Shown piece after piece: positions 682 to 41,215 of a stretch of DNA of 64,000 nucleotides. Position 1 is the stretch's first letter. The number at the start of each line of letters is the position of its first letter. Position numbers and translations under genes: made by a program. Source of the DNA: Capitulum mitella (lineage: Eukaryota; Arthropoda; Thecostraca; Pollicipedomorpha; Pollicipedidae); contig CP099851.1 of NCBI GenBank assembly GCA_030062745.1, positions 5,147,661 through 5,211,660 of the forward strand. Reading direction: 5' to 3'. The notes beneath the pieces are model-generated. The model saw only the letters and a list, made by a program, of their open reading frames with translations. It was not told where the DNA came from and did no database searches.

Positions 682-744
682 TTATTCTGCCTTGTCGGCC
701 TCGCTCTTCTTGTTGTCCTCCTCCTTCTCCTTGTCCTCGTCCGC
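682..744 (-). CDS. fax: fax terminal coding exon 6 (charged tail)
   Basis: Short exon after TTTCCGGCAG, phase 0 from the donor at 2030. It encodes ADEDKEKEEDNKKSEADKAE and then TAA, followed by another TAA. The Glu/Lys tail continues the composition of exon 5 and resembles the highly charged C-terminal tails of insect fax. It is too short for an ORF scan. It is supported by acceptor quality, phase and composition, not by strict homology. Confidence 0.72.
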   Translation of the reverse strand, partial: ADEDKEKEEDNKKSEADKAE

Positions 745-3700
745 CTGCCGGAAAGGACAGACCGGTCAGCGGGTTCGCCGGCGCGGACGGGACAGGGCGT
801 GGCCGCCGCCGACTCGACTGAGTCACCGCCGCCGTCGCCGACCGTCCCGTAGTCGACCGCTCGATGGCGGGTGACTCAGCCGCCCAGACGCATCGACTCG
901 GCCCGCCCGGCGACCGCCACGTGACCCAGATCGCCGGCGGCGGCGGCGGCGCCGGCCCGTTACGCCCGGCGGGCACGACCGCCGGCCGCGCCCCATCGAC
1001 CACACGGGCCGGCTCGGGCCAGTTCCGCGCCGGCTGCGCCCCGTCCGAGCGAAGGCGCTGCTCGGAAGTTGGGCCGCTGACCTGACCCGCCGCTGGCCGA
1101 GCCACGACCGCCCGGGGTCGCCCCGGCTGACCACAGCGCGGCCGCGGCGCCGATAGCGGACCACGCCGGGGATGTCCCCTCACTGGGTCATCAGCGGACG
1201 GCTGCCGGGCCCTGCGGCCAACCGCTCCCCCCCCCCCCCTCCATCTGCCCGGCTGATTCATGGAGTCGTCACAGTGTCGAGATCATCAGCGGCAATAAAC
1301 AACAATCAGGGATGCGGAGCCCGGCAGCGGAGGGGATCTCCCTTTACAGCCCTCCAGCGGCGGCCTGACGACACCGAGCGCCACAGCTGGGGCCGGCGAC
1401 GGCGACCGAAAGCTCAGATAAGACGCCTCGTCCACTTCAGTCGGGGCGAGGGCGCGCAGGGGTATCGGTGACGCGCAGCAATTCTTATCTTGCAGCTGGT
1501 CATACGGTCGACCAAGCTCTGCATGTTCCGGTTACGACGACAAGCAAGGACAAACACGTCGGCAGCAAGAAGCGAGGAATGTGGAGCAAACCACGGCGAG
1601 AACTTTGCTCACTGGCTGGCAAGCAAATGACTAACTGGGATGTTTATTGTTCGACCCGCGTTGCCTTCACACAAAGTGGGACGCGGTGGATGCAGCCGAA
1701 CTGGAGCACAAAACAGGGCCTCGACGGGCCGATCATATGCATACAGCAAATGGGGTCAGGCAAAAGTCCACAGGCCATCATGAGTGTAGACTGTCGAAAC
1801 TCTTAGGCTGAATATTACCGAGGATTCGCCAACGGAATCCCAGTTGCCGAAACTTCACTACAGGTAACAAAAAACAACGACACTATCTCTTTCCAACTCT
1901 TTGGGGAATGCTACAAACTGAGACCAACGACACAAAGGAGTTGACAGTACGACCCCGATACTGCTCGCTTTCTGGCAAGGACTACCACTACGGCCTCCCA
2001 CGAACCAAGCCTGCCTCCCAAGCCCCCACCTTCTCCTTGTCGGCGGCCGCCTCGGCGCTGGCCTCCTCCGGCTTGTCCTCCGCCTCCTCCTTCTTGGCCT
2101 CCTCCTCCTTGGCCTCCTCGGGCGGCGGCTTGGGCAGGTGGGTGTTGAGCTCCAGCGTCTGGCACATCTCCTCCCAGTCCGGGTAGAAGCGCTCCTTGAT
2201 CCGGTTGGCGTGGCCCACCAGGTTGGTGTGGTTCTCCTCGACGTAGGTGCGCAGCGGGCAGTCCACCTCCTTGTCCAGGAACACCAGCTGCGCCACGTTC
2301 GCGAACGCCACGATGTCCAGCTGCAACGGAAGAGGCTCGCCATCAGGTCTACGCCGGACGGCAGTCTGATCAACGGCCTCGATAACGATCCGTTCACGCG
2401 TAACCCAGCAGCGACCGAACAGCAGAAACGGCGGGAGTGGCGCGTTTCAATCCCACATTTTTCACATGAATGTTCAAGGTTGTTAAGTCAGGTAATTGGA
2501 TCAAAACGCGTGGAAGGGCATGCCTGCTAATCCATTAACGAGCAGGGACACCAAAAGGTGACCTTCAGTTTGCTTTCCATGAAATCGTAAAATACGAACT
2601 CCATGGCAAAAAATCTAACATGCTACGCCTCCGTGATGTTTGACTCAGGCGGTGCGGATCAAGTTCCGCTAATGGCAGCTGGCCATAGGCGGAAAACGCG
2701 GCAAGTCCCTGATGCCGACACATCCTCCAGCCAACGTCATTCCGACAGACTATCAGTCCGACAGATCTGTCCGCCAAACTTGTCAGTCTGACTCGGCGCC
2801 AGCCTGAGCTAGCCCAGGCTGACCGGCCGCGCGGTGGCTGACCATCCTGCATCGGCCCAAACACGCCACCGCCCGGCGGCGCCAGTGTCACCACGGTCAA
2901 ACACGACCGGCCACGGCCACCACCGCCCGACCGGCACGCATATCACCTCACAGCCAGCCGGGCCATCAGACCACCCAACAGCCAGCCGGGCCATCAGACC
3001 ACCCAACAGCCAGCCGGGCCATCAGACCACCCAACAGCCAGCCGGGCCATCAGACCATCTCACAGCCAGCCGGGCCATCAGACCACCTCACAGCCAGCCG
3101 GACCACCAAACCACCCAACAGCCAGCCGGGCCATCAGACCACCTCACAGCCAGCCGGGCCACCAAACCACCCAACAGCCAGCCGGGCCGCCAGACCATCT
3201 CACAGCCAGCCGGGCCATCAGACCACCTCACAGCCAGCCGGGCCGCCAGACCATCTCACGGCCAGCCGTGTCGCCAGTACCAGTCTCAGCGGCCTGGGTT
3301 AGGCCCAACTAAATCAACGCCAAGGCGCCACACGCCGTCACCCCGGCCCGGATCAGCGGACCGGCAGCCGCCGAGAGCGCCGCGTTTGGCGTCCGCCGGC
3401 CGTCGGCTCGGAGCGCGTCACTCAGCGTGACAGGCGATAACGACCGTAAACAAACGGCGCACTCAGACGGACGGCACGCAGCCGCCCGGCGGCCGCCGCC
3501 GGCTCCTTTCATCCGTCGGGCCCGCTGTAAAGCGCCAACCGGACGGCGAGGGGTCGCTTTGGTTCGGTTCGGTTCGGTTCTGTTTTGTTCTGTTCGGTTC
3601 GGTTCGGTCCGGTCCGGTCCGGTCCGGACCGGCGTGGTATGGTCCCGGTTCGGTCCGGTCCGGCTCGGCGTGTTATGGTCCCGGTTCGGTCCGGTCCGGC

Positions 3701-6700
3701 TCGGCGTGGTATGGTCCCGGTTCGGTCCGGTCCGGCTCGACGTGGTATGGTCCCAGTCCGGTCCGAACAGAGCCTGCGCTCTCCCTGGGCCGGAGTGATT
3801 CGGGCAGGCTGACGCTCCTCTCCATGCCCCGCCCCATCAGACACTAACGCCGCCAGTACCAGACATCTCGCGTGCAATCCGGCAACACGTCAACATTACA
3901 GAGGCCCGACACATAGCACAGCATGCGTCATCGGGCGAGGCCCACTGAGGCCAAATTAAACGCGCCATTCGGCAGTCAGGGCTGATTTCAGCATTTCAGC
4001 CTCAGAGAGCTGACACCAGAAGCGGCTGACACACCAGGTCACGTGCTCTGACCGCGGCGCAGGCGCCGGCACAAACCACAAAGAGCCGCCGGCCGCGGTC
4101 CCGGGGGGGGGGGAGGAGAGTGAGGCGGGGGGGGGCGAAGACGCCGGTGACTCACGGCAGCCGCGGCGCCGCCGTCTGTTTAGCCGGTGCCAGCACCGCG
4201 AGACATTCCCGGAGAGCTGAAGCCGTGAGCTGTCGGCGGCCGCCGCCGTTCCGGATTTAACCGGAGCGAACGCTGACGGCGCTCCCGGCGGCGGCCCGTC
4301 CGCCACCGCGGCGTCACAGGGCAGCCCGGCCCGGACGGCGGCCGACGCGCCGGCAGGGAGGGCGTGGTCCGAGACAGACCGCGGGGACAAAATAGAAACA
4401 GCGGGACCCGGAGACTAGAGACATGCCGCGGCGCTGAGTAACGCTGACGGGCACCAGGACTGCATTAACGAGTCTTACTGTCTTCAAGTCTTCATTAAAG
4501 GTGCCTCATTAACTGCAGACAACGCTTTAGATCGACAGGCCCGAGTCGACCGTGAGTGAACATTTTCAGACGGCTGGCCCCATGTCCCGCTTAGTCAGTC
4601 CTTCACGGATGCAGACGTTCTGAACTGGTAAACGATAATCAGATGCAGGGCGTGAATGACTCTGGCGATCCGCTCTTAAAGGGGTTAAGGTGAAACACTT
4701 GTGTTTATTTCGCTATCGCGAGAGAAATGGGTGAAGGAATCGTTGTTTTTTTCTGAAGCCGGCGAAAGAACTGCGGTTCCGCTTCCCAAGAGACGCCTGG
4801 TCTGTGCCCTGACCCGGCACACGGTGAGAGTCTGTTCCCCACTGTGGGCCGGCGGCCACCGTCTGCCTCCTCACCAAGAGTGGGCTCGTCGCCGAAGAAG
4901 AACGGCTTGTCCTGCAGCTGGTCCGACAGCACCTTCAGGTCGTTCTTGCCCATCTCCTCGATCTCCTCCGGCTTGTGGACGCCGAGGCCGACGGCTTTCA
5001 CGGCCTTGGACTTCTGCAACGTGAGAAGCAGCGGTCACACCGGTCCGCGGTCGGACAGGACGGCAGCGACAGCAGCAGACCAGCACTGATATCACCAACA
5101 AACACCGCATCAGACGGCAACGGTCCTTGGGAATGCGTGACTACAGCCCTTCTTTAACTATTGCGCCTGGTAGCACTGTTTATTTGCTTTGCTCTCGGCA
5201 TGCCTCATATGCAAGGGCTGCAAACTCTAGCCGGGGCGCCAAATTAGCCAGCTGACGGCCGAGGACCCGGCAGAATCGCGCCCCGCAGCCGTGCTGCGGC
5301 CGGCAGCGGGGCCCGGCCTCTGTGTCCAGCACCAGAATCACGACCCAGCGGGCGGCTGCTCGGCCAAGCGTGAGCATCGGTAGCGCCACTCCGGTCCGAC
5401 CGGCGGCCGCCGCGCCGGCAACTTGGAGACACGCTCTGCTGGCCGCCCGGCCAGCCAGCTGCCCGCCTCAGAATACCGCCGGCGGCGGCCGACACGACTG
5501 AGTAACATACGCGGCCTGCACGCTGTGCCTCTGCGTGAACACGTACCGCCTCCCGGCTCCACGCCAGCAACCACACCAGCCGTAGCAGAACACAGGGTCT
5601 AGAGCGCATGCGCGGTGGCCAGGTGCGTACTCACAGACTTCATACGGAGCTTGAAGCCGAAGTTGAGCAGCGCAGCGGGCAGCTTGGTCTGGAACATGCG
5701 CTGCAGGTCGAGCTTGTAGCCGGCCAGCATTCGGCTGGGCACCTTACTCCGCCACCAGCCGACGACCCTGCGAAGCGGAGGTGCCCGAACCAAACGTAAG
5801 CGCTAGCAACTCAAAGAGCATAGCCAAGCGGACGTTGCCGACACATCCCGAACGCCGCTGCGTTCGCGGCGCCGGCGCGGACGCCGGCGACGCCGGCAGT
5901 CACCTGTTTGTACCGCAGCTTGAAGGCCATGTTGAGCACCATGTTGGGCACCTTGCTCTCCAGCGCCTGCTGCAGGTTCAGGCGCGTGCCCTTGAGCCAC
6001 TCGCCCGGGTTCTTGCAGCGCCAGGACTTGTTGATCCTGGCGGCAGCGGCCCGCGGCTGAGGCGGCGCCGCCGAGCGCGGACGCGCGGCCGCCGCCGCGG
6101 GCAAAAACGGCGCACGTCGCGCGTCGAGACCGCCGCACGCGCGCAAAAACGCCCCCGGCCCGTCGACAGACTGTCCAAAAACTAGCCGGGGTCAAGGGGC
6201 TTAGGGGCGGCGAGACAAGTGCAGGAATTCCGATCAGGGGTTCGCAGGACCGAACGGAAAGAGCAAAAGGGGACGGAAAGCGGCGTCAGTTCAACGTGCA
6301 GGTGTTGCAGTCACGGGAACATGTCACCGTTTCCAGAACTGGAAACACCCGAATATCACTGGCTGTGCTGCCCTCCATCATAGCTGGAAGTGGCGACAAG
6401 TGAACATATCCAATTACATTAGCCACTGCTGCTGTCGGTGCTCCCGTGCTCAGTACCCGGGAAACTAGACCAGTTTGTCTGATCTAGAACAATGGCCAAG
6501 CCGACGCCTCACCGGAAACTACCAGCATCCGGCGTCACTGGATCCGGCGGCGGCCAGGGCGGAGCAGGAGTGCCGTTACTCGGCCACAGACCGTCTGCTG
6601 ACCGCCCGACGCGGCGCGGCCTGACGGGCCGGTGTGACAGCGTGACGGGCCGGCGTGGCGGCGTGACGGCCGTGGCGGGCCGGCGACGGCACACAGCTGG

Positions 6701-15426: not shown

Positions 15427-18400
15427 ATCAATACGGCAAAGTGCCGCCGGCCGGGCGGCGTCGGCCGGCTGCAGTGCAATAGCCGGCGGCGCCGGTCGGG
15501 CGGCCGGCTCACGGGAGGGGAACCGCCCAGGGCTGCCCTCGGGGCCGCCCCGGCCGCCAGGGTCCAGTCACCGGCGCTACCAGCACGGTCGGAGCGCCTG
15601 TACGGAATACAGCCGCGGGTCCGGGGGAGAAGACCGTCGAAGCGCGTACGTGGGAGACCCGACGAGGGAAGGATCAAGAGAGATACAGTGAAGACGTGCC
15701 CGAGTGTCCAGAAGAAGGAGAAATTTCCCAGGCCGAGGAAAAGGGAGGAAGAACAGAAATTCGCGCGGGACCAATACGTGATTCATCGGAAGTGTTCGGA
15801 ATGGACCCAAGAACAGAAATGAACGGAATTTAGAACCAAATTTGACCAGACTTTAACCAGACCATGCATGATAGATTTCGCAGTAAAATGAGCCATTTTT
15901 ACGCCAACAGCTACATCAGTGCGCGAAGGTAAAGCAAATTAAGCGCAGTCTAGAAGTAACCAACATAAACATCAAGTGTTTGTTTGTTCCCGACAGTGGC
16001 AAGAATACGGTGACAACCTAAGTGCACGATGAGTCAGAATTAAATAACTCGTCCGCAGACATGCAGGCAGAAATAGACAGCGCTCGCTGCTAATATTCCG
16101 TCTCGGCATTACAACGACCGTGCTAGAAAAATAAACAACGACATTCTGACGGGTGTAATAAACAGCTCTGTTTCCTATCAACGTCAATTTACCGAGCCGT
16201 TTCATGCTTATGGCATGAAGAAAGCGGAAGTGTTGATCATGGCTGTAACAAGGCTGGCCGAGGCCCATTCCTCCGTGGCTCGCGTCAACATTTGCCCAGC
16301 TCTGGCCTCCGTTCCGGCCTACTCCTTAGCTCCACCTCTGGCCCCAGCTCTGCCCCCAGCCCCAGCCCAGTCCCAGCCCCAGCTCCAGACCCGGTTCTAG
16401 CCTAGCTCCAGCCTCAGTGTAAGCCCTGAAGATCTACCCACAGTGCTCGAAGGACACTCGCTCCAGCTCCAGTCCCCGTTCCAGCCCCAGCTCCGTCCGC
16501 AGCTCCGTCCGCAGACCGCGCCTCAGCTCGGGCTCGGGCGGCTCGAGTTCACCGGCTGACGGCCAAATCCGTGCTCTGGGCCGGCGGCCGAGACGATCCA
16601 TAAACCGCCGCCGTCCGAGCGAACCGGTGCAGAGCGCGCCAGCCGAGCGCTGCCGTCCACCGGAGCATCGGCCGGCGCCGAGAGAACGACCGAGAAGCAC
16701 CGGCAGACCGACCGGGTCATCGGCAGACACAACGGAGCACCGGTAGACACACCGGAGCACCGGAAGGCAGACGACCGGAGCACCGGCAGACACACCGGAG
16801 CGCCGGAAGGCGCACCAGAGCACCGTCATATCGAACGGAACACCGATAAGTACAATGGAGCACGGACAGACTAGGCGGACCACAGGCAGATCCACCGGAG
16901 TACCGGCAGACCCATCAGAGCACTGTCGGATCCATCGGAGCACCGGCAGATGCGCCAGGGCACGGACGGACCGAAGGACGACAGACGGGCAAAACCGGCG
17001 CACGGGTGTAAAAAACTGAAGCATGACAGACTCACCAGAACACGGCCAAACTCCAGGGAATGAGAGCAGATTGACCAGAGCACGACTGGATCCACCGTAG
17101 CACGGACAGACCGACCGGAGAAAGGGCAGACGCACCAGAGTACGGTAACTTTGCCGGAAATCATGGTAACAGACAGAGCTGTTGTTGTCGCGAGCATGGA
17201 GGGAACGTAGCAGGAATAAAACAAAACAAAGGTCCGGAACACGCCCGCAGGCATCACAGAAAACAGCAGAGGGCACCTCCACATCGCCTTGAGTGCAAAC
17301 TGGATAAAAAGGCAGCAGGGAAAAATACATACCGTTCCCACAATACGTACGGTCCCCACTACGGATGGAGGTGTTATTTTCTTACGCTGAAAGGCACCAC
17401 AAAATGGGTGCTCCAAAAACATTTTGTGCTCCAAAACTTCGATCCAGTGCATCCATCAAAAATCTACGTTATAACCATGTTGGCAAATTCTAACTCTGCA
17501 AGCAAATGACTATCTCCATTCAGTACGAAGCAGGTAGGTCGTCATAACTAACTTACACCAAGAACGCCAACTTAAACCAGTGTTACTGTTTGCAAAATTC
17601 TGTAATTCAAAAGAAAAAAAATTGCTCCGACACCAAGAACAAAAACCAAACTTCCAGCCCCGGTTCCCATTCAGCGGGGAGCACAGCCGCAGCACCTCCC
17701 CCCCCCCCCCCGACTGCCTCCCAGACCCCGCACGGCAGACGGCCGGCAGGAGTAAATCAATGACCTCGTCTGGCCACCTGCCTCTGAGGCCAGGATCCAT
17801 TAACCCCCCCCCCCCGGGGGCGGCCCGCCGGCGGAGGGCGCGCGGTCTCGGCGAGACACTCACCAGTGCAGGTGGTTCTCGATCATCGAGATCATGGCGT
17901 GGCTGAGCGTCTTCTGCTCGGGCGTCAGCGCCGCGTCCAGGTCCTTGTCGAACTTGGTCGATAGCTCCTTGACGATGAAGGACGAGTCGGAGATCTCCTC
18001 GCCGTTGAGCTCGACGAACGGCAGCTGGCCCTTCTTCGACCGCAGCTTCATCCGGTGGTCCACGTTCTGCGAAAGCGGCGAGGGAAACCTCACTCGGAGC
18101 CGCAGGAGATTGGGCTCTCCTAGATCACGGATTGCCGTTTATTGCGCCGCGGCGTCCGCGAGACTCACGCCACTGAGTGCTGCTGTGTTACCGAACTCCA
18201 TTAAGTTCGCCGCCTTTCCCGGCAGCCGGCAACGACATGAAAAATGCGCCCTTCCAAGAGCCATTCACGCGGACGCTCAGCGATTTTCGCGAAGTGCACC
18301 GGGTCTGTAACACTGCCCCATAGCCAAGTAGGCTGCTGCAGCAGTTCGGGCAAATTGGTCACGCCGCCCAGCGAATCAGCAACGCTCCATATTTACGTGC

Positions 18401-27300: not shown

Positions 27301-30182
27301 GAAGTTCATGCCATTGGGCACATTAGCCTAGGGACGTCAAGCTGCCTGAGGATATTTCTACAGATCTTCAGTAGAACGGACGAATGTCCTACCCTGTTTC
27401 AAACGAATCGCGTGGCCAGTCGATGGCCGATGACTGCTGCCGGGTTCCAAGTGTGATTGCCCACATTTCTGTTGGCATAATATTCATTGGCCCATATATC
27501 TTCCAGGGCTATTGGGAGATACATGTTGGCAGCAGGCGACGTGATCTATCTCGCGATCATCATTAGCGCCCAAGTAAATACGGAAAAAAACATGCTGTTT
27601 GGGCAGAAGAACCAAGAAACCAAACAGGAAAGCTGCTCTTTCGCTTTTCGTTCTTTTCTTGTAACGCGGTTACAGATGCTAACCTGAGACGAGACCCTGC
27701 GGCAACGGATAACAAAAGGCAACGATCCCTGACCAAAGAGAGAAAATGGAGCTTTAAAGGCCAAAGTTTGTTATGTCTACAAAGCGATTAAGAGATCACG
27801 ATTCGGAGCTACGGCTCCTTTCGGTGCCAGGATCAGTCTGCTGTACACGTGACAATCAAGAGTGCATGCAAGAGAACAGGACAGGGACTTTCGTCGAAGA
27901 AAACTGTTCAGGCTCCGACACATGTTTTGAACCGTGATGGCCAAGCTGCGCCTTCTGGTCTCAGATCATCTGAAAACCATTTACATTTTCAGTCCCCGAG
28001 GATTTCCCGTGCCCTGTTCATCCGTGTCTTGCTGACAGCTGTGTGGCGAGATGCGCGAGACAGGCCAGTGAATGTTAAGCGAAAACCCGTACTGAATAAT
28101 TATCAATGGGTGACACGCGCATACAGCTTTTTGTCGATTACAAATGTTTTTTTGGCTTTCGCTGAAAATACTCTCCAATTTTTGGAACGAAGATATTCGC
28201 ACATTTTTGGACCAAAAAAACAATATGTTTATGAAAAGATGACCAAGACTGCGCATATCTTTCATGGATGCGACATTTTTAGTTAAGAATTCTGCGGAAG
28301 GATACACTGAACGACCTTAACGCTGCTTTAGTTTCCGCAGAAGAAAAAAGATCACATAACTTACATTAACGTGTTTGCGCCCGCAACATCAACATGTGGT
28401 GCAGCATAGCCGGAAATACCTTTGCATCGGTGCCAATCGCACACAGAAAGGGCGGTCGTACGAAATCCACTTGTTTTGGCAACGTCAGCGAACCAACACA
28501 GCTGCCGTTGTTCGCGATAAACCGTGCTACCTGTCAGCAGGTTCACACCGACAATGGCGCAGCCGCGCATTCAGCGGGCCTCGACTAATTCCCTGCGTCG
28601 AAAGCGGCGCAGTATCCAGAGCGAATCGGATTGCATTCCTGGGTAGCGGAGCGAGGCGCCTGCTCGTAACCGGCTTTCAACCGTGCTTCTAATGGTTGCA
28701 TGTGCGCACGGGTGATTTGAGGGCTCCGGTTTCGTGGACAGTTTTCTTTCGCTCACAGACTGCCCGATAAATTACGAAAAGAGTCTATTCGGCGTGCAGA
28801 ATGGCTGCGTCGAGCAGCCGAATGGCGCTTGGGGTAACGGGGCGCAGTCGACATGAATCGTCTGTGTGGCGGTAAAGTCATGACCCTTGTCGAAACGACC
28901 TCCGGTCGATCGACCCCAATGCCCGTCGTAAACCCCGGCTGGAAACTCGATACAGGGCACCGGAAGGGCCGATCAGGCGACGACCAATTGTTCGGCGCCG
29001 GTCCAGTCGCTGTTGACTGTCTCCGGGATCATATTCCGACCCCGATCAGCGGCAGCGCCCCGGGGAAATCACCGCTTCGCCCCGGCCCCGCTACAGCAGG
29101 GCCGGACAGGTCCCCAACATCGAGCTGGCGGGATTGACAACCAGGGTTAAAGATGCCAGTGGAGTTGGGGGAGCTGGCTCCTGCCGGCCGGGAAATTTGG
29201 AATCACGATAACGCCCGTTTTTTCCCTTCACAGTCGACTCACCGACTCTTCGAGAGTGAACGACCCTTCCGTATCAGGCGAAATTTTCGAAGCACATTTC
29301 CGCCAATTCACACCAAACGTGCATCTCCGTGCGCAATCGTAGTAAATCTGCGCTTGACTGTCGCGCGTTAAAATCACATGAGAAACTGCTGGATTTCTTC
29401 GTGTGAGGCGTTATGGTCTCCTTGTCGGTGTGCTGCCAGACAGGATAAGAAAAACTGAGGACAAAGGGGTCATCGTTGGCGCCTCGCCCCCCCCCCCAAC
29501 GGCTCCAGCCCCCGGGAATCACTTATGCGAAAGCTGAACAGACAAAAGCACGTACCGAGGGGTTTCGGCGGAAATTTAATCATTTCTGTTGAAAACAACT
29601 CTACATGAAATTTGGAGTCCGTTCGGCCACATGGGCAAACAGTGCTTTACAATACCATAACCCAAACAAAATTTTATTGCCCTTCTCCGAACTGTCTTGC
29701 TCAAAATCCATCTAAAAGAAAACGTTTACATGTGAACGTTTGCCAACACGCACTCCAGATTTTCCTGCGCGACGACTGCAACATCATAATTATAACTGGA
29801 ATGGAATGGATGGCACTCAAGCGCACGCCATAAGATGACATACCAAAGCTAGCGCCGACATCCTCACCTCGTATTTGATTCCGGCGACCCTAAGGAAAGT
29901 CTCCATCTTGAGGCAGAAAGGCGAGATGGAGGGGACCACCGGCGTGCGGGAGAACTGAAACAAGTAAACCACGTCCTTCTCAAAGTCCGGCTTGTGCACG
30001 GTGGGCTTGGGCGGCGCCGGGGGCTTCTTCTCCTTCTTCTCCTCCACCTTCTTGTCCTTCTCCGTGTCCTGGTCAGACTTCTCCTCCTTGTTGACCTCTG
30101 CCTTGACCTCCTCCTTGACCGGGACGTCCTGGTCCACCGGCGCCGCCGGGACCTCGGTCTTGGTCTCTGCCTCGTTGGTCAT
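682..30182 (-). CDS. fax: Failed axon connections (fax/FAXC) protein, whole coding span, 6 coding positions
   Basis: Multi-exon gene for a GST-like protein of the failed axon connections family, known in insects from axon growth and sharing the metaxin-type split thioredoxin/GST-C layout. The exons in order give an acidic/Lys-rich leader (residues 1-70), a thioredoxin-like strand-helix region (FSRTPVVPSISPFCLK, then KKGQLPFVELNGEEISDSSF), an all-helical GST-C region (NLQQALESKVPNM or its alternative; EEIEEMGKNDLKVLSDQL; KPFFFGDEPT; LDIVAFANVAQL; YPDWEEMC) and a highly charged tail. The model is about 380 aa. All junctions are GT..AG and phase-consistent except exon 4 to exon 5, which is off by one base. 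Introns total about 28 kb. The start is the first ATG of exon 1, in context GCCATCATGA. Family assignment rests on recognised motifs, not a search. Confidence 0.9.
745..2029 (-). other. fax intron 5 (GC-rich)
   Basis: About 1.3 kb between the exon 5 donor and the exon 6 acceptor. 750-1250 is very GC-rich with GGC/CGC runs and a C-tract near 1229. The remainder has ordinary composition. No gene was seen beyond the read-through tail of exon 5. Confidence 0.5.
1643..1648 (-). promoter_or_regulatory. Candidate intronic poly(A) signal for the read-through fax isoform
   Basis: TTTATT on the plus strand is AATAAA on the coding strand, 340 nt after the alternative stop at 1988 and within the intron between exons 5 and 6. 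Confidence 0.35.
1988..2320 (-). CDS. fax: fax exon 5; donor at 2030, or read-through terminal exon to stop at 1988
   Basis: Acceptor TCCGTTGCAG|CTGGAC. It encodes LDIVAFANVAQLVFLDKEV, then DCPLRTYVEENHTNLVGH, ANRIKERFYPDWEEMCQTL and LNTHLPKPPPEEAKEEEAKK, followed by more Glu/Ala/Lys-rich tail. The first half is the end of the GST-C fold. A donor, GAGAAG|GTGGGG at 2030, allows phase-0 splicing to the short exon at 682-744. Without splicing, 13 more codons (VGAWEAGLVRGRP) precede TAG at 1988. An AATAAA on this strand at 1643-1648, 340 nt on, could end that isoform. Confidence 0.87.
   Translation of the reverse strand: MDIVAFANVAQLVFLDKEVDCPLRTYVEENHTNLVGHANRIKERFYPDWEEMCQTLELNTHLPKPPPEEAKEEEAKKEEAEDKPEEASAEAAADKEKVGAWEAGLVRGRP
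2940..3275 (+). repeat. 28-bp minisatellite, about 12 copies
   Basis: Direct tandem copies of a 28-bp unit beginning GGGCCATCAGACCACC and ending CAACAGCCAGCC. Variants alternate CACCCAACAG with ATCTCACAG or ACCTCACAG, and a few copies read GGGCCGCCAG or GGACCACCAA. It lies in the fax intron between exons 4 and 5. Confidence 0.92.
3556..3765 (+). repeat. Pentanucleotide (GGTTC/GGTCC) tract merging into a 36-bp minisatellite
   Basis: 3556-3635 is (GGTTC)n passing into (GGTCC)n. From about 3636 a 36-bp unit (CGGCGTGGTATGGTCCCGG then TTCGGTCCGGTCCGGCT) repeats about 3.5 times. The larger unit contains the pentamers, so it probably grew out of them. Confidence 0.88.
3766..4874 (-). other. fax intron 4, remainder
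   Basis: Non-repetitive GC-rich intron sequence with G-runs at 4100-4135 and a short unremarkable stretch at 4400-4700. No gene or RNA could be supported. Confidence 0.4.
4875..5013 (-). CDS. fax: fax coding exon 4 (GST-C core)
   Basis: 139-nt exon, acceptor CACGTTGCAG|AAGTCC (phase 0). It encodes KSKAVKAVGLGVHKPEEIEE, then MGKNDLKVLSDQLQDKPFFF and GDEPTL. The only good donor is CTTG|GTGAGG, which leaves one extra base relative to the phase-0 acceptor of exon 5. Insect homologues read GDEPT-x-LD at this point, so the exon should logically end one base earlier, after CTT. A single-base assembly insertion in the CC at 4874-4875 (GG on the coding strand) would explain it. Confidence 0.85.
5014..5634 (-). 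other. fax intron between exons 3b and 4
   Basis: 621 nt, GC-rich, with no repeat or gene apparent apart from the GCGCATGCGC palindrome at 5604-5613. Splicing signals for the 3a/3b choice would be sought here and in the 136-nt intron at 5768-5903. Confidence 0.4.
5635..5767 (-). CDS. fax: fax exon 3b, mutually exclusive with 3a
   Basis: 133-nt exon, acceptor GCTTCGCAG|GGTCG and donor AAGTCT|GTGAGT, with the same phases as 3a. It encodes VVGWWRSKVPSRMLAGYK, then LDLQRMFQTKLPAALLN and FGFKLRMKS. Positions shared with 3a include the W-R-x-K-x-P core, the L..G, the L-x-L-Q pair, the K-x-P turn and the F-K-L-R-x-K end. Differences fall mainly on helix surfaces (for example E-S-K-V versus Q-T-K-L), so the pair would alter one face of the GST-C domain. 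A GCGCATGCGC palindrome (5604-5613) lies just past its donor. Confidence 0.87.
5904..6036 (-). CDS. fax: fax exon 3a, mutually exclusive with 3b
   Basis: 133-nt exon, acceptor CGCCAG|GATCAA (takes one base to finish the Trp codon) and donor AAACAG|GTGACT (phase 0). It encodes the first helices of the GST-C region: INKSWRCKNPGEWLKG, then TRLNLQQALESKVPNMVLN and MAFKLRYKQ. It is collinear with exon 3b 136 nt downstream in transcription: same length, same phases, and 18 of 44 residues identical by hand count. Using both exons together would shift the frame, so one or the other is expected per mRNA. Confidence 0.88.
6037..7445 (-). other. fax intron 2, first part (GC-rich, CGG-type repeats)
   Basis: About 200 nt of ordinary intron near 6200-6480, then 6530-7300 of GCCGGC/CGG-rich DNA. 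Long open frames occur in several frames on both strands, as expected where stops are rare, so I annotate none of them. Confidence 0.45.
7446..7640 (+). repeat. 30-bp minisatellite, about 6 copies
   Basis: Degenerate tandem units of about 30 bp with the core GGGAATCTGCTCCCTC followed by GTGACTCCAGGCA, varying from 30 to 33 bp. Located in fax intron 2. Confidence 0.85.
7641..8516 (-). other. fax intron 2 segment, no gene recognised
   Basis: GC-rich intron between the 30-bp array and the piggyBac-like element. A near-duplicated stretch of about 44 bp occurs at 8225-8330 (CACACCATCTGGCC versus CACACCACCCGGCT). The open frames look compositional. Confidence 0.35.
8521..9731. mobile_element. Non-autonomous piggyBac-like element, 1.2 kb, TTAA target duplication
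   Basis: The left end TTAA|CCCTATTCCCGG (8517-8532) and the right end CCGGGAATAGGG|TTAA (9720-9735) are exact inverted repeats flanked by a duplicated TTAA. TTAA duplication with termini starting CCC is the piggyBac hallmark. Inside the left terminus, GGCAGGGGGGGGCGGAATCC forms a palindrome with the following CCCCCCC. The right end has the same palindromic block, but about 23-28 nt of extra sequence separates it from the tip. The interior is AT-rich, carries AGGTCA-type motifs (8860-9010, 9140-9190) and has no transposase frame. Confidence 0.82.
9736..11655 (-). other. fax intron 2 segment with short E-box repeats
   Basis: 10020-10085 has three copies of a 22-bp unit with core GGCAGTGGTGGGT. 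10105-10230 has about three degenerate copies of a unit containing CACGTGTCC and GCCTCTGAAATGAGCC. 10250-11655 is unremarkable. An open frame at 11272-11646 lacks recognisable similarity and is not called. Confidence 0.45.
11656..11813. mobile_element. hAT-like MITE, 158 bp
   Basis: Ends CAGGGGCGG (11656-11664) and CCGCGCCCCTG (11803-11813) are inverted repeats of the CAGGGGCG type common to hAT elements. The flanking octamers TCTCATAG and TCTCCTAA agree at 6 of 8 positions, consistent with an aged 8-bp target duplication. The interior contains the G- and C-runs typical of such elements and no coding capacity. Confidence 0.6.
11814..13635 (-). other. fax intron 2 segment, very GC-rich
   Basis: 12080-13600 is dominated by GCCGGC/CGG words. 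Frames open for over 400 codons here are explained by stop-codon depletion and show no domain. Confidence 0.4.
13636..13880 (+). repeat. 19-bp minisatellite, about 13 copies
   Basis: Near-perfect tandem array of the 19-mer GACGCTGGCGCGGGACCCT, with a variant GCGAGGGCCCC form interspersed in a semi-regular order that suggests a 57-bp higher-order unit. Confidence 0.93.
13881..16299 (-). other. fax intron 2 segment
   Basis: 14200-14360 and 15700-16250 have ordinary base composition. 14580-15600 is extremely GC-rich with a (GCC)n run at about 15397-15425. No gene, tRNA or element ends were recognised. Confidence 0.4.
16300..16400 (+). repeat. CCCAGCYC-type simple repeat
   Basis: Degenerate hexamer-like runs of CCCAGC, CTCCAG and CCCAGT, continuing weakly to about 16520. 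Confidence 0.6.
16655..17150 (+). repeat. 20-bp minisatellite, about 25 degenerate copies
   Basis: Tandem 20-mers of the form GAGCACCGGCAGACCCACCG. Consecutive units can be read in register from 16740 to 16980, for example GAGTACCGGCAGACCCATCA then GAGCACTGTCGGATCCATCG. Copies decay toward both ends. The long minus-strand open frame over this array is a by-product of the unit. Confidence 0.85.
17151..17863 (-). other. fax intron 2, part next to exon 2
   Basis: Mostly ordinary intron. C-runs at 17699-17711 and 17805-17815 lie shortly after the exon 2 donor. No gene was seen. Confidence 0.4.
17864..18066 (-). CDS. fax: fax coding exon 2 (thioredoxin-like half)
   Basis: 203-nt exon, acceptor TTTCGCAG|AACGTG (phase 0) and donor CACTG|GTGAGT (phase 2). 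It encodes NVDHRMKLRSKKGQLPFVEL, then NGEEISDSSFIVKELSTKF, and ends in MISMIENHLHW, the Trp codon being completed by the next exon. The K-G-Q-L-P-F-V-E-L-N-G-E-E stretch is the signature of the fax/metaxin-like GST_N part and matches the insect proteins closely. Introns of about 11.8 kb lie on each side. Confidence 0.92.
18067..20430 (-). other. fax intron 1, part next to exon 2
   Basis: About 2.4 kb of mixed composition, moderately AT-rich at 18560-18720. No repeat array, RNA gene or coding exon could be supported. Confidence 0.4.
20438..20478 (+). repeat. (GGTCC)n/(GGGCC)n pentanucleotide tract
   Basis: Runs of CGGTC followed by CGGGC. The same pentamer family occurs at 3600, about 17 kb away in another intron of the same gene. 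Confidence 0.8.
20805..21020 (+). repeat. 19-bp minisatellite, about 11 copies
   Basis: Tandem 19-mers GCGGCGACAGCCCAACAGA with substitutions (AACCAACAGA, GACCACCAGA, TCTAATTGA). The period equals that of the array at 13636 but the unit sequence is unrelated. Confidence 0.9.
21257..21308 (+). repeat. (GGC)n trinucleotide run
   Basis: About 16 consecutive GGC units with one GT interruption near the start, inside 21.2-22.4 kb of GCCGGC-rich DNA. Confidence 0.9.
22385..22605 (+). repeat. 21-bp minisatellite carrying CRE-like TGACGTCA sites
   Basis: About ten degenerate 21-bp units, best seen as GAGTGACGTCACAGGTCTGCA followed by GACTGACGTCGCAGGTCTGCG. Most units keep a TGACGTCA or one-mismatch palindrome. 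Confidence 0.78.
22606..29867 (-). other. fax intron 1, part next to exon 1
   Basis: 22.6-25.7 kb is GC-rich with CGG runs (24130-24200, 25435-25460) and multi-frame open stretches. 25.8-29.8 kb is near-balanced. C-runs near 29490 resemble a transposon end. No exon, RNA gene or paired element ends could be supported. Confidence 0.4.
29868..30182 (-). CDS. fax: fax coding exon 1 (N-terminus)
   Basis: Encodes 105 residues. The first ATG gives MTNEAETK, followed by a long Lys/Glu/Pro-rich leader to about residue 70 (probably disordered). The start of the GST-like fold follows, with VVYLFQFSRTPVVPSISPFC and then KMETFLRVAGIKYE. The donor is GAG|GTGAGG, phase 0. An in-frame GTG 42 nt upstream is open but less likely as a start. 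Possible acceptors (CTAG, GCTAGCAG) lie just before the ATG, so a 5'-UTR intron is possible. The Cys in SPFC occupies the place of the GST N-terminal active-site region, but I infer no catalysis. Confidence 0.88.
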
Positions 30183-37020: not shown

Positions 37021-38567
37021 TTGATCGGACCTTGGGTTCGACCGACGGCCGGTCAGCTCCGAGATCACACGTAAACAAACCATTTAACGCAGAAACGTCA
37101 AAAATCCTTACGCGAGCGTCTGGCGGCCAGCACGACAGTGACGACGCAATCTGCTTCAGGGGAAATAATGTGTTTCAGGTTTTTCCGGCTGAAATCGTAA
37201 GAAGTACGCATCAATATTGCATTTCAAGTACTATACAACCACTATTAGGACTATTTTCCTTCAGTGTAAGTGCACGGTCATAATCTTACTGTTGACCCAG
37301 GAGTGCATTAAATTATAGCACTGATGCCATTAGAGACTTATCTGAATTAAGCTTCATGCACAATGATCAATGCTAAGGAAACAGATTAGTACAATCAAGC
37401 CAAATGAAATGAAACCACAGTTAAAGGAACCAGACTTAACTCTTCTTTTTCAGTGCACTAAACCTAATTCATCCAACCTAATCTAACATAACATGGCCTA
37501 GTCTTGGTCTTGAATCAGATTCATGGGTGGAATCTGCTATTCTGTTGATATGGCTAATGCAACAGCAGTAATGCCAAAACTTGGCATAAAACTCTTGGTA
37601 AAGTATGAGAAGAATTGACTTGAAAGTGATGCTGGAAACACCAAAATTTTCAGCACCATCACAATGCAATGAATTGACAATGATTGACCAATCCAAGGTC
37701 TGCTGTTCCACAGCATGAAGCGAATTAGAGAAGGTTGGGCAAGAGATAGTTAGTTGACTACATTGCCATAGGTTTAGTCTTGTTGTGATTAGTGTATCAG
37801 CTTGCAGTAATTGAAACCGCATAACTTTGTCCTTATTAGTGTTGCTCTAGATGAATTTGTGTTATAAGTATAGTCATCTTGCTTTGGACATAAATTCAAA
37901 CTTCTTATTGCTCGAGTTTGTAATACTCATCATAATAAGAAACGTTCGTAGTAATAAAAATGTGATCATTTTCAATGTCATGCTTGTAGTGGGGAGATGG
38001 GGTTATTTCGTTGGAGCTTCAGATCATTTGGGAACTCAGTTCAGTGGTCTCGTGAAATTGCTCATGACGTGGTCTCTGACCCCTGAGAAAACCATTTGGC
38101 CTGTAATTTGTGAATCATTTACGGTATATTGTTTGAGCATACAGCTTCATACCCTGTGCACAGAACTTTTTAGCTTTGTTTGTTTGCGCAGTAGCTTAGC
38201 TGCAGCAGTGTTCCAATTATCTTTTTGATACAATGAAATGGATGTTCGTTTGGTGTTGCAGTATGCTCTGTACTATGGGGAGTTCCCTATACTCAGGACG
38301 GAATTGGAATGATTTCGCTCTTTTAATTTGCATTGCATGTATGTTTCATTGGATTAGAACTACCAACAAGGAAAAGTACCATTACCGCTTTACTTTTTTG
38401 ATTGGTGGCTGTGACAAGTTTCTGAAAAACTTTCGCCATGCGTGGTGGGAGTAAACCGCCCACTAAATGTGAAACTGTATATTTGATCATGTGGTATCAT
38501 TCCATGTGTTTTGAAACTAAAAAGCACACCCAAAATTTAAGGAATGTTTGTACTTGTCTCTTCACAG
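37021..38567. other. Region upstream of NTMT1, possible 5' exon/promoter near 37.0-37.2 kb
   Basis: 37030-37150 is a small CpG-containing patch in AT-rich surroundings and could be the NTMT1 promoter or first non-coding exon. A first exon is required because the coding exon starts with a splice acceptor. I cannot place it. Confidence 0.3.
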
Positions 38568-38590
38568 GCTCATATCACACAAAAGCTACC

Positions 38591-41215
<2,625 letters not shown>

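Follow-up and report, generated by a model that had tools for sequence, protein, structure and literature searches.

Tandem-duplicated mutually exclusive exons, as in the Dscam clusters, are described by the WebScipio criteria as neighbouring internal exons of equal length and identical phase that are homologous to each other, one of them being needed for the full reading frame (PMC3228551). The two exons analysed here, designated 3a and 3b, share all of these features. On the fly X chromosome, the features that predict such pairs were found in 90 of 16,180 exons that are not mutually exclusive, counted per transcript (PMC3228551, section 13), and in the same paper only 26 of the 65 internal exons predicted had by then been annotated (section 14). 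The present cluster differs from the Dscam-type clusters in that it consists of two exons, lies in fax and is predicted from sequence. The exons 9/10 of PKM and the exons 7a/7b of unc-32 likewise offer a binary choice between two internal exons; these pairs differ from the present one in that regulators have been reported for them.

The gene carrying 3a and 3b is fax-like. Drosophila Fax, whose function is described as unknown (PMC4197710), and human FAXC, which is described as little characterised (PMC10452860), contain a GST-like domain, and the protein of the present locus shows matches to GST_N_4 and GST_C_6. Metaxins and GDAP1 carry additional helices that separate alpha-4 from alpha-5 in their GST-like fold (PMC10452860), and the protein studied here is predicted to share this feature. 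For the metaxins, the prediction is that these helices lie over the glutathione site (section 3.2), and a figure legend of that paper groups FAXC with the metaxins for the inserted helices. No report of mutually exclusive exons in fax was seen among the titles and abstract beginnings listed. A term search of the main texts of PMC3228551 and PMC3303723 did not find fax named, which carries little weight because PMC3228551 covered the fly X chromosome only. The type of switch is already known, and the absence of a fax report from the literature searched is a weakly tested point.

We consider it about 80% probable that an exon of this fax-like gene was duplicated in tandem long ago and that the copies are now mutually exclusive, which would yield two full-length proteins differing only in 44 residues.

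Structure of the fax-like gene

The gene lies on the minus strand, and its start and stop codons are both present within the window (the whole stretch of 64,000 nt that was analysed). The name fax is presumed here from the label in the original prediction and from a resemblance to fax; we also take the combination of GST_N_4 and GST_C_6 to define the fax/FAXC family. The parts of the gene are as follows (a slash in a motif marks an exon boundary).

29868..30182, minus strand: coding portion of exon 1, with the start codon ATG at 30182 and a phase-0 end; encodes the start of the GST_N_4 match
17864..18066, minus strand: exon 2; its terminal TG is part of a split Trp codon; donor CTG/GTGAGT
5904..6036, minus strand: alternative exon 3a; 133 nt, namely the final base of the Trp codon and 44 codons; T-poor acceptor
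5768..5903, minus strand: intron 3, separating 3a from 3b; 136 nt; branch-point-like motif CTTAC about 30 nt upstream of the 3b acceptor
5635..5767, minus strand: alternative exon 3b; 133 nt, namely the final base of the Trp codon and 44 codons; nearer to the fax-like paralogs
4876..5013, minus strand: exon 4; starts with AAG in phase 0; a GT donor lies one base further on (exon to 4875)
2030..2320, minus strand: exon 5; the remainder of GST_C_6 and the start of a charged tail
682..744, minus strand: exon 6; the end of the coding sequence, with the stop codon TAA

Exons 2 and 3a are about 11.8 kb apart. With either alternative exon, the protein comprises 380 residues when the in-frame join of exons 4 and 5 described below is used. 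Its Pfam scores are 97.2 bits (3a form) and 99.4 bits (3b form) for GST_N_4 (curated cut-off 30), 67.9 and 67.6 bits for GST_C_6 (curated cut-off 28), and 46.1 and 44.5 bits for Tom37.

One irregularity was found at the join of exons 4 and 5. Exon 4 ends in CTTG/GTGAGG and exon 5 starts with CTGGAC, and GT-AG joining of the two is one base out of frame (4875-4876 / 2320). The fax-like paralogs have no gap, by eye, at the point matching this join, and a one-base assembly error is the likely cause of the misfit. The use of an alternative exon 4 donor, ACA/GTGGGG, was also considered: this weak donor would restore the frame and add 11 residues, but the paralogs contain no such insert by eye, and an assembly indel is therefore preferred. 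In the searches, exon 4 was ended one base early so as to give the in-frame join. The misfit casts some doubt on the gene model, while exons 3a and 3b are unaffected by it.

The homologous exons 3a and 3b

The features originally predicted for the pair proved exact to the base: 3a (6036-5904) and 3b (5767-5635) are both 133 nt long, lie on the minus strand and are separated by a 136-nt spacer. Each of them completes the TG/G Trp codon and ends in phase 0, and the 44 residues that each encodes can be aligned gap-free and agree at 18 positions, all as had been claimed. Counting the shared Trp gives 19 identities in 45, and the aligned segments have 26 BLOSUM-positive positions. Their alignment score of 89 stands against a mean of -38.6 (SD 13.8) for shuffled segments, none of 100,000 shuffles scoring as high; among the other open 132-nt stretches on both strands of the window, the highest scores are 19 with 3a and 17 with 3b. 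The pair has GT/AG at each of its four splice sites, the donors being GTGACT and GTGAGT, and the cluster is flanked by exons 2 and 4 on either side.

No third copy of the exon was found in the window when both exons were used as queries against both strands. In the 477-Mb genome to which the window belongs (16 contigs), the 44-residue segment of 3a matched, at E ≤ 10, only itself and 3b (E 3.3e-4; 2 candidates scored), and that of 3b matched only itself and 3a (E 3.4e-4; 3 candidates scored). Since queries of this length miss the diverged paralog counterparts that the full-length query finds, these results exclude similar copies, not distant ones. Taken together, the findings indicate that the fax-like gene holds a real, old and phase-locked pair of homologous exons.

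The codon composition of the two exons points in the same direction. The GC content at third positions is 0.98 in 3a and 0.89 in 3b, while the first two positions together have 0.42 in 3a and 0.49 in 3b, so that the contrast (position 3 minus positions 1 and 2) amounts to 0.56 and 0.40, respectively. None of 11,194 non-exonic 133-nt windows of the gene region (sampled every 5 bases on both strands, with the best of three phases taken) attained the contrast of either exon. Among 24,668 samples of 133 nt from the whole window, none reached the contrast of 3a and 40 reached that of 3b, 20 of the latter being open. The identities between 3a and 3b at codon positions 1, 2 and 3 are 22, 27 and 23 of 44, the expectations from composition being 11.9, 11.4 and 19.0: third positions are near saturation, while first and second positions are conserved, and both exons thus look as if they had long been under selection. 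The open frame of 3a is in itself weak evidence, because a frame of the composition of intron 3 would be open by chance with a probability of about 0.46. In sum, both copies look coding and anciently duplicated.

One productive exon at a time

The original prediction had argued that inclusion of both exons would shift the frame. The frame logic turned out to be stricter than this. When 3a and 3b are joined, a TAA appears at codon 8 of 3b, and when both are skipped, the TG of exon 2 and the A of exon 4 form a TGA at the exon 2/4 junction; thus, neither combination is open. With either exon alone, the frame is kept and the GST-like domain is complete, a test that lies upstream of the exon 4/5 join. 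Both stops precede at least two further junctions, and decay of the corresponding transcripts would therefore be expected.

What stands of the proposed mutually exclusive pair is that the exons are homologous and phase-matched and that one of them is productive at a time, whereas exclusivity in splicing itself is deduced from the sequence; we regard the pair as very probably mutually exclusive. Similarly, decay had been proposed to enforce the exclusivity: the wrong combinations are indeed unproductive by frame, but this does not explain the choice made by the spliceosome. According to the reading preferred here, each transcript would use either 3a or 3b, and the wrong combinations (both or neither) would be removed by nonsense-mediated decay.

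Each form also fits the profile of the bacterial relatives as a single continuous domain, with 141.7 bits for the 3a form and 140.0 bits for the 3b form; without exon 3, the match breaks into two pieces totalling 129.7 bits. This profile was built from nine sequences: both loci of one set, 6 of the 12 records of another, and the transferase StyI. Exons 3a and 3b share the Arg of the 'WR' motif with all nine bacterial relatives and all eight aligned paralogs.

Position of the segment in the GST-like fold

The segment had been described as the first helix pair of the GST-C region. This placement had to be modified: the segment falls between the two Pfam matches, after that of GST_N_4 (which extends to residue 176 with 3a and 179 with 3b) and before that of GST_C_6 (residues 239-304), and corresponds roughly to the end of alpha-4 and the alpha-4/alpha-5 linker. 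The solved sequence nearest to the 3b form is that of the bacterial transferase StyI (9qd3, E 2.6e-12). When mapped onto the bacterial relative L001, exon 3 covers residues 106-144, that is, the end of a helix at 86-113 and two short helices before a helix at 159-177; the boundaries are approximate, the pLDDT of the L001 model being below 50 at 121-142 and 144-155, precisely in this part. This model is of low confidence: its alignment holds two sequences and its mean pLDDT is 61.7, as compared with 38.9-41.5 for the other four models. Its best PDB match is StyI 9qd3, with GDAP1 at rank 10. On this model, the swapped segment takes in roughly the last part of alpha-4 and the small helices leading up to alpha-5.

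To our knowledge, metaxins and GDAP1 have one fixed version of the extra-helix segment, in contrast to the two alternative exons of the present gene. The segment encoded by 3a is more polar (GRAVY -0.75) than that encoded by 3b (-0.08), and the net charges are +7 and +8, respectively. A swap between them might alter how the glutathione site is covered and which partners it has. We offer only as a tentative and rather doubtful extension that the exon choice exchanges a lid above the glutathione site in a metaxin-like GST. Since no other stretch of the domain is less conserved in the fax-like paralogs compared, one gene may hold two functional forms, a polar 3a form and a more hydrophobic 3b form, which would differ in their ligands, partners or membranes, the pair being old enough to occur in many arthropods. 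An evolved two-way switch confined to 44 residues would point to the alpha-4/alpha-5 linker as a site of specificity, and the two natural isoforms would provide a ready-made comparison.

Paralogs and bacterial relatives

A search of the same genome with the full-length query yielded eight fax-like loci that have a single open frame across the fax intron positions, with 31-37% identity.

L017-L020 and L022 on C6 (about 4.25-4.29 Mb) and L021 on C2: six close paralog copies, 81-96% alike
L023 on C4 and L026 on C9: further single-frame paralogs

The translation of L021 was ended at its stop, which is located beyond the domain. The loci that are in pieces (L027 with L030 on C6, and L028 with L029 on C7) were left out of the comparison. 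In the exon-3 columns, all eight paralogs compared score higher with 3b than with 3a, and the paralog profile gives 161.2 bits for the 3b form versus 155.1 bits for the 3a form; as six of the eight are close copies of each other, they represent about three independent lineages. Of the 34 aligned residues of the segment, 5-7 are identical between the paralogs and 3b, and 2-5 between the paralogs and 3a. The flanking parts of the domain have higher identities: 36-44 of 103-104 residues before the segment, and 27-35 of 93-94 residues after it. The exon-3 segment is thus the most divergent part of the domain between fax and the paralogs. Outside the paralogs, the polarity is mixed: the bacterial profile mentioned above and Tom37 score higher for 3a and GST_N_4 higher for 3b, and neither the bacterial relatives nor the Pfam scores decide which copy is the ancestral-like one. 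From the paralogs, we infer that 3b is the ancestral-like version and 3a the diverged one, although the lower resemblance of 3a to the paralogs would also fit a decaying copy.

This fax-like family, whose domains are intronless and five of whose close copies are clustered on C6, appears to be expanded and is possibly of retroposed origin. Among 23 candidate stretches in viral contigs, no relative was confirmed.

Choice between the exons and rival explanations

The acceptor of 3a contains only two T in the 22 nt before its AG and is the T-poorest of the six acceptors scored. Such an acceptor suits regulation, and 3a may be rarely used. Our preferred guess for the exon choice is that RNA-binding proteins would regulate this weak acceptor. 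Two other modes of exclusion were considered. Steric hindrance operates where the distance from donor to branch point is below about 50-60 nt; in the 110 nt of intron 3 nearest to 3b, which were scanned, a single YTNAY motif (a consensus match only) lies some 106 nt away from the 3a donor, and steric blocking is therefore not suggested. An incompatibility between U2 and U12 sites was discarded because all sites of the pair are GT/AG, and no U12 motifs are seen by eye.

It is unlikely that the exclusivity is enforced by competing base-pairing between introns through docking and selector sites. Strong pairing is computed for the beginning of intron 3, both with the sequence preceding 3a (-40.5 kcal/mol) and with intron 4 (-42.2 kcal/mol), energies reached by none of 25 shuffles in each case, and none of 60 shuffles was as strong as the pairing of the whole intron 3 with intron 4. 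Nevertheless, among 33 GC-rich control triples from the same gene region, 7 reach the energy of the intron 3-4 pairing, 11 that of the intron 2-3 pairing and 3 both, two of these with one shared element; and when the whole-intron test was rerun, 4 of 150 shuffles reached the observed value, as did 19 of 67 pieces of intron 2 (2 of 15 when GC-matched). This GC-rich element of intron 3, which could pair either just upstream of 3a or within intron 4, is thus kept as a lead and not used as support for exclusivity. As a separate observation, intron 4 contains, by eye, an imperfect tandem repeat with a GC-rich unit of about 30 nt (about 2945-3260 of the window).

The remaining rivals concern the status of 3a and the level at which the choice is made. 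If 3b were constitutive and 3a a diverged poison exon, inclusion of 3a together with 3b would cause the premature stop at codon 8 of 3b and lower the expression of fax; the T-poor acceptor of 3a and its greater distance from the paralogs would agree with this. However, 3a by itself is open from end to end, with matching phase and length, shares 18 residues with 3b and has the stronger GC bias at third positions, all of which would be superfluous in a pure poison exon, and we judge this explanation quite improbable. The weak acceptor might also mark 3a as a dead duplicate that has dropped out of splicing. This is very unlikely in view of the conservation at codon positions 1 and 2 in spite of the near-saturated third positions, of the two intact splice dinucleotides and of a GC bias that none of the 11,194 control windows reached; the open frame counts against it too, weakly by itself given its chance of about 0.46. 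Least probable of all is that both exons are real but are kept apart by the use of different promoters or transcript forms, and not by a choice within one pre-mRNA: the interval of about 11.8 kb between exons 2 and 3a leaves room for other starts, but the Trp codon begun in exon 2 is completed by 3a and by 3b alike, and each of them thus appears shaped to follow that exon. A choice between two functional exons within one pre-mRNA is thus the reading that we retain.

Two minor observations concern other genes. In one strain of Methylocystis parvus, fax-like transferase genes (L004 and L007) lie on two plasmids just upstream of mdlC, which encodes benzoylformate decarboxylase, and each of them has a hypothetical gene directly before it. 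In the window itself, an open frame on the plus strand (38426-38968) matches the Pfam family Methyltransf_PK (AdoMet-dependent proline di-methyltransferase; E 1.5e-10) and is probably part of a neighbouring gene.
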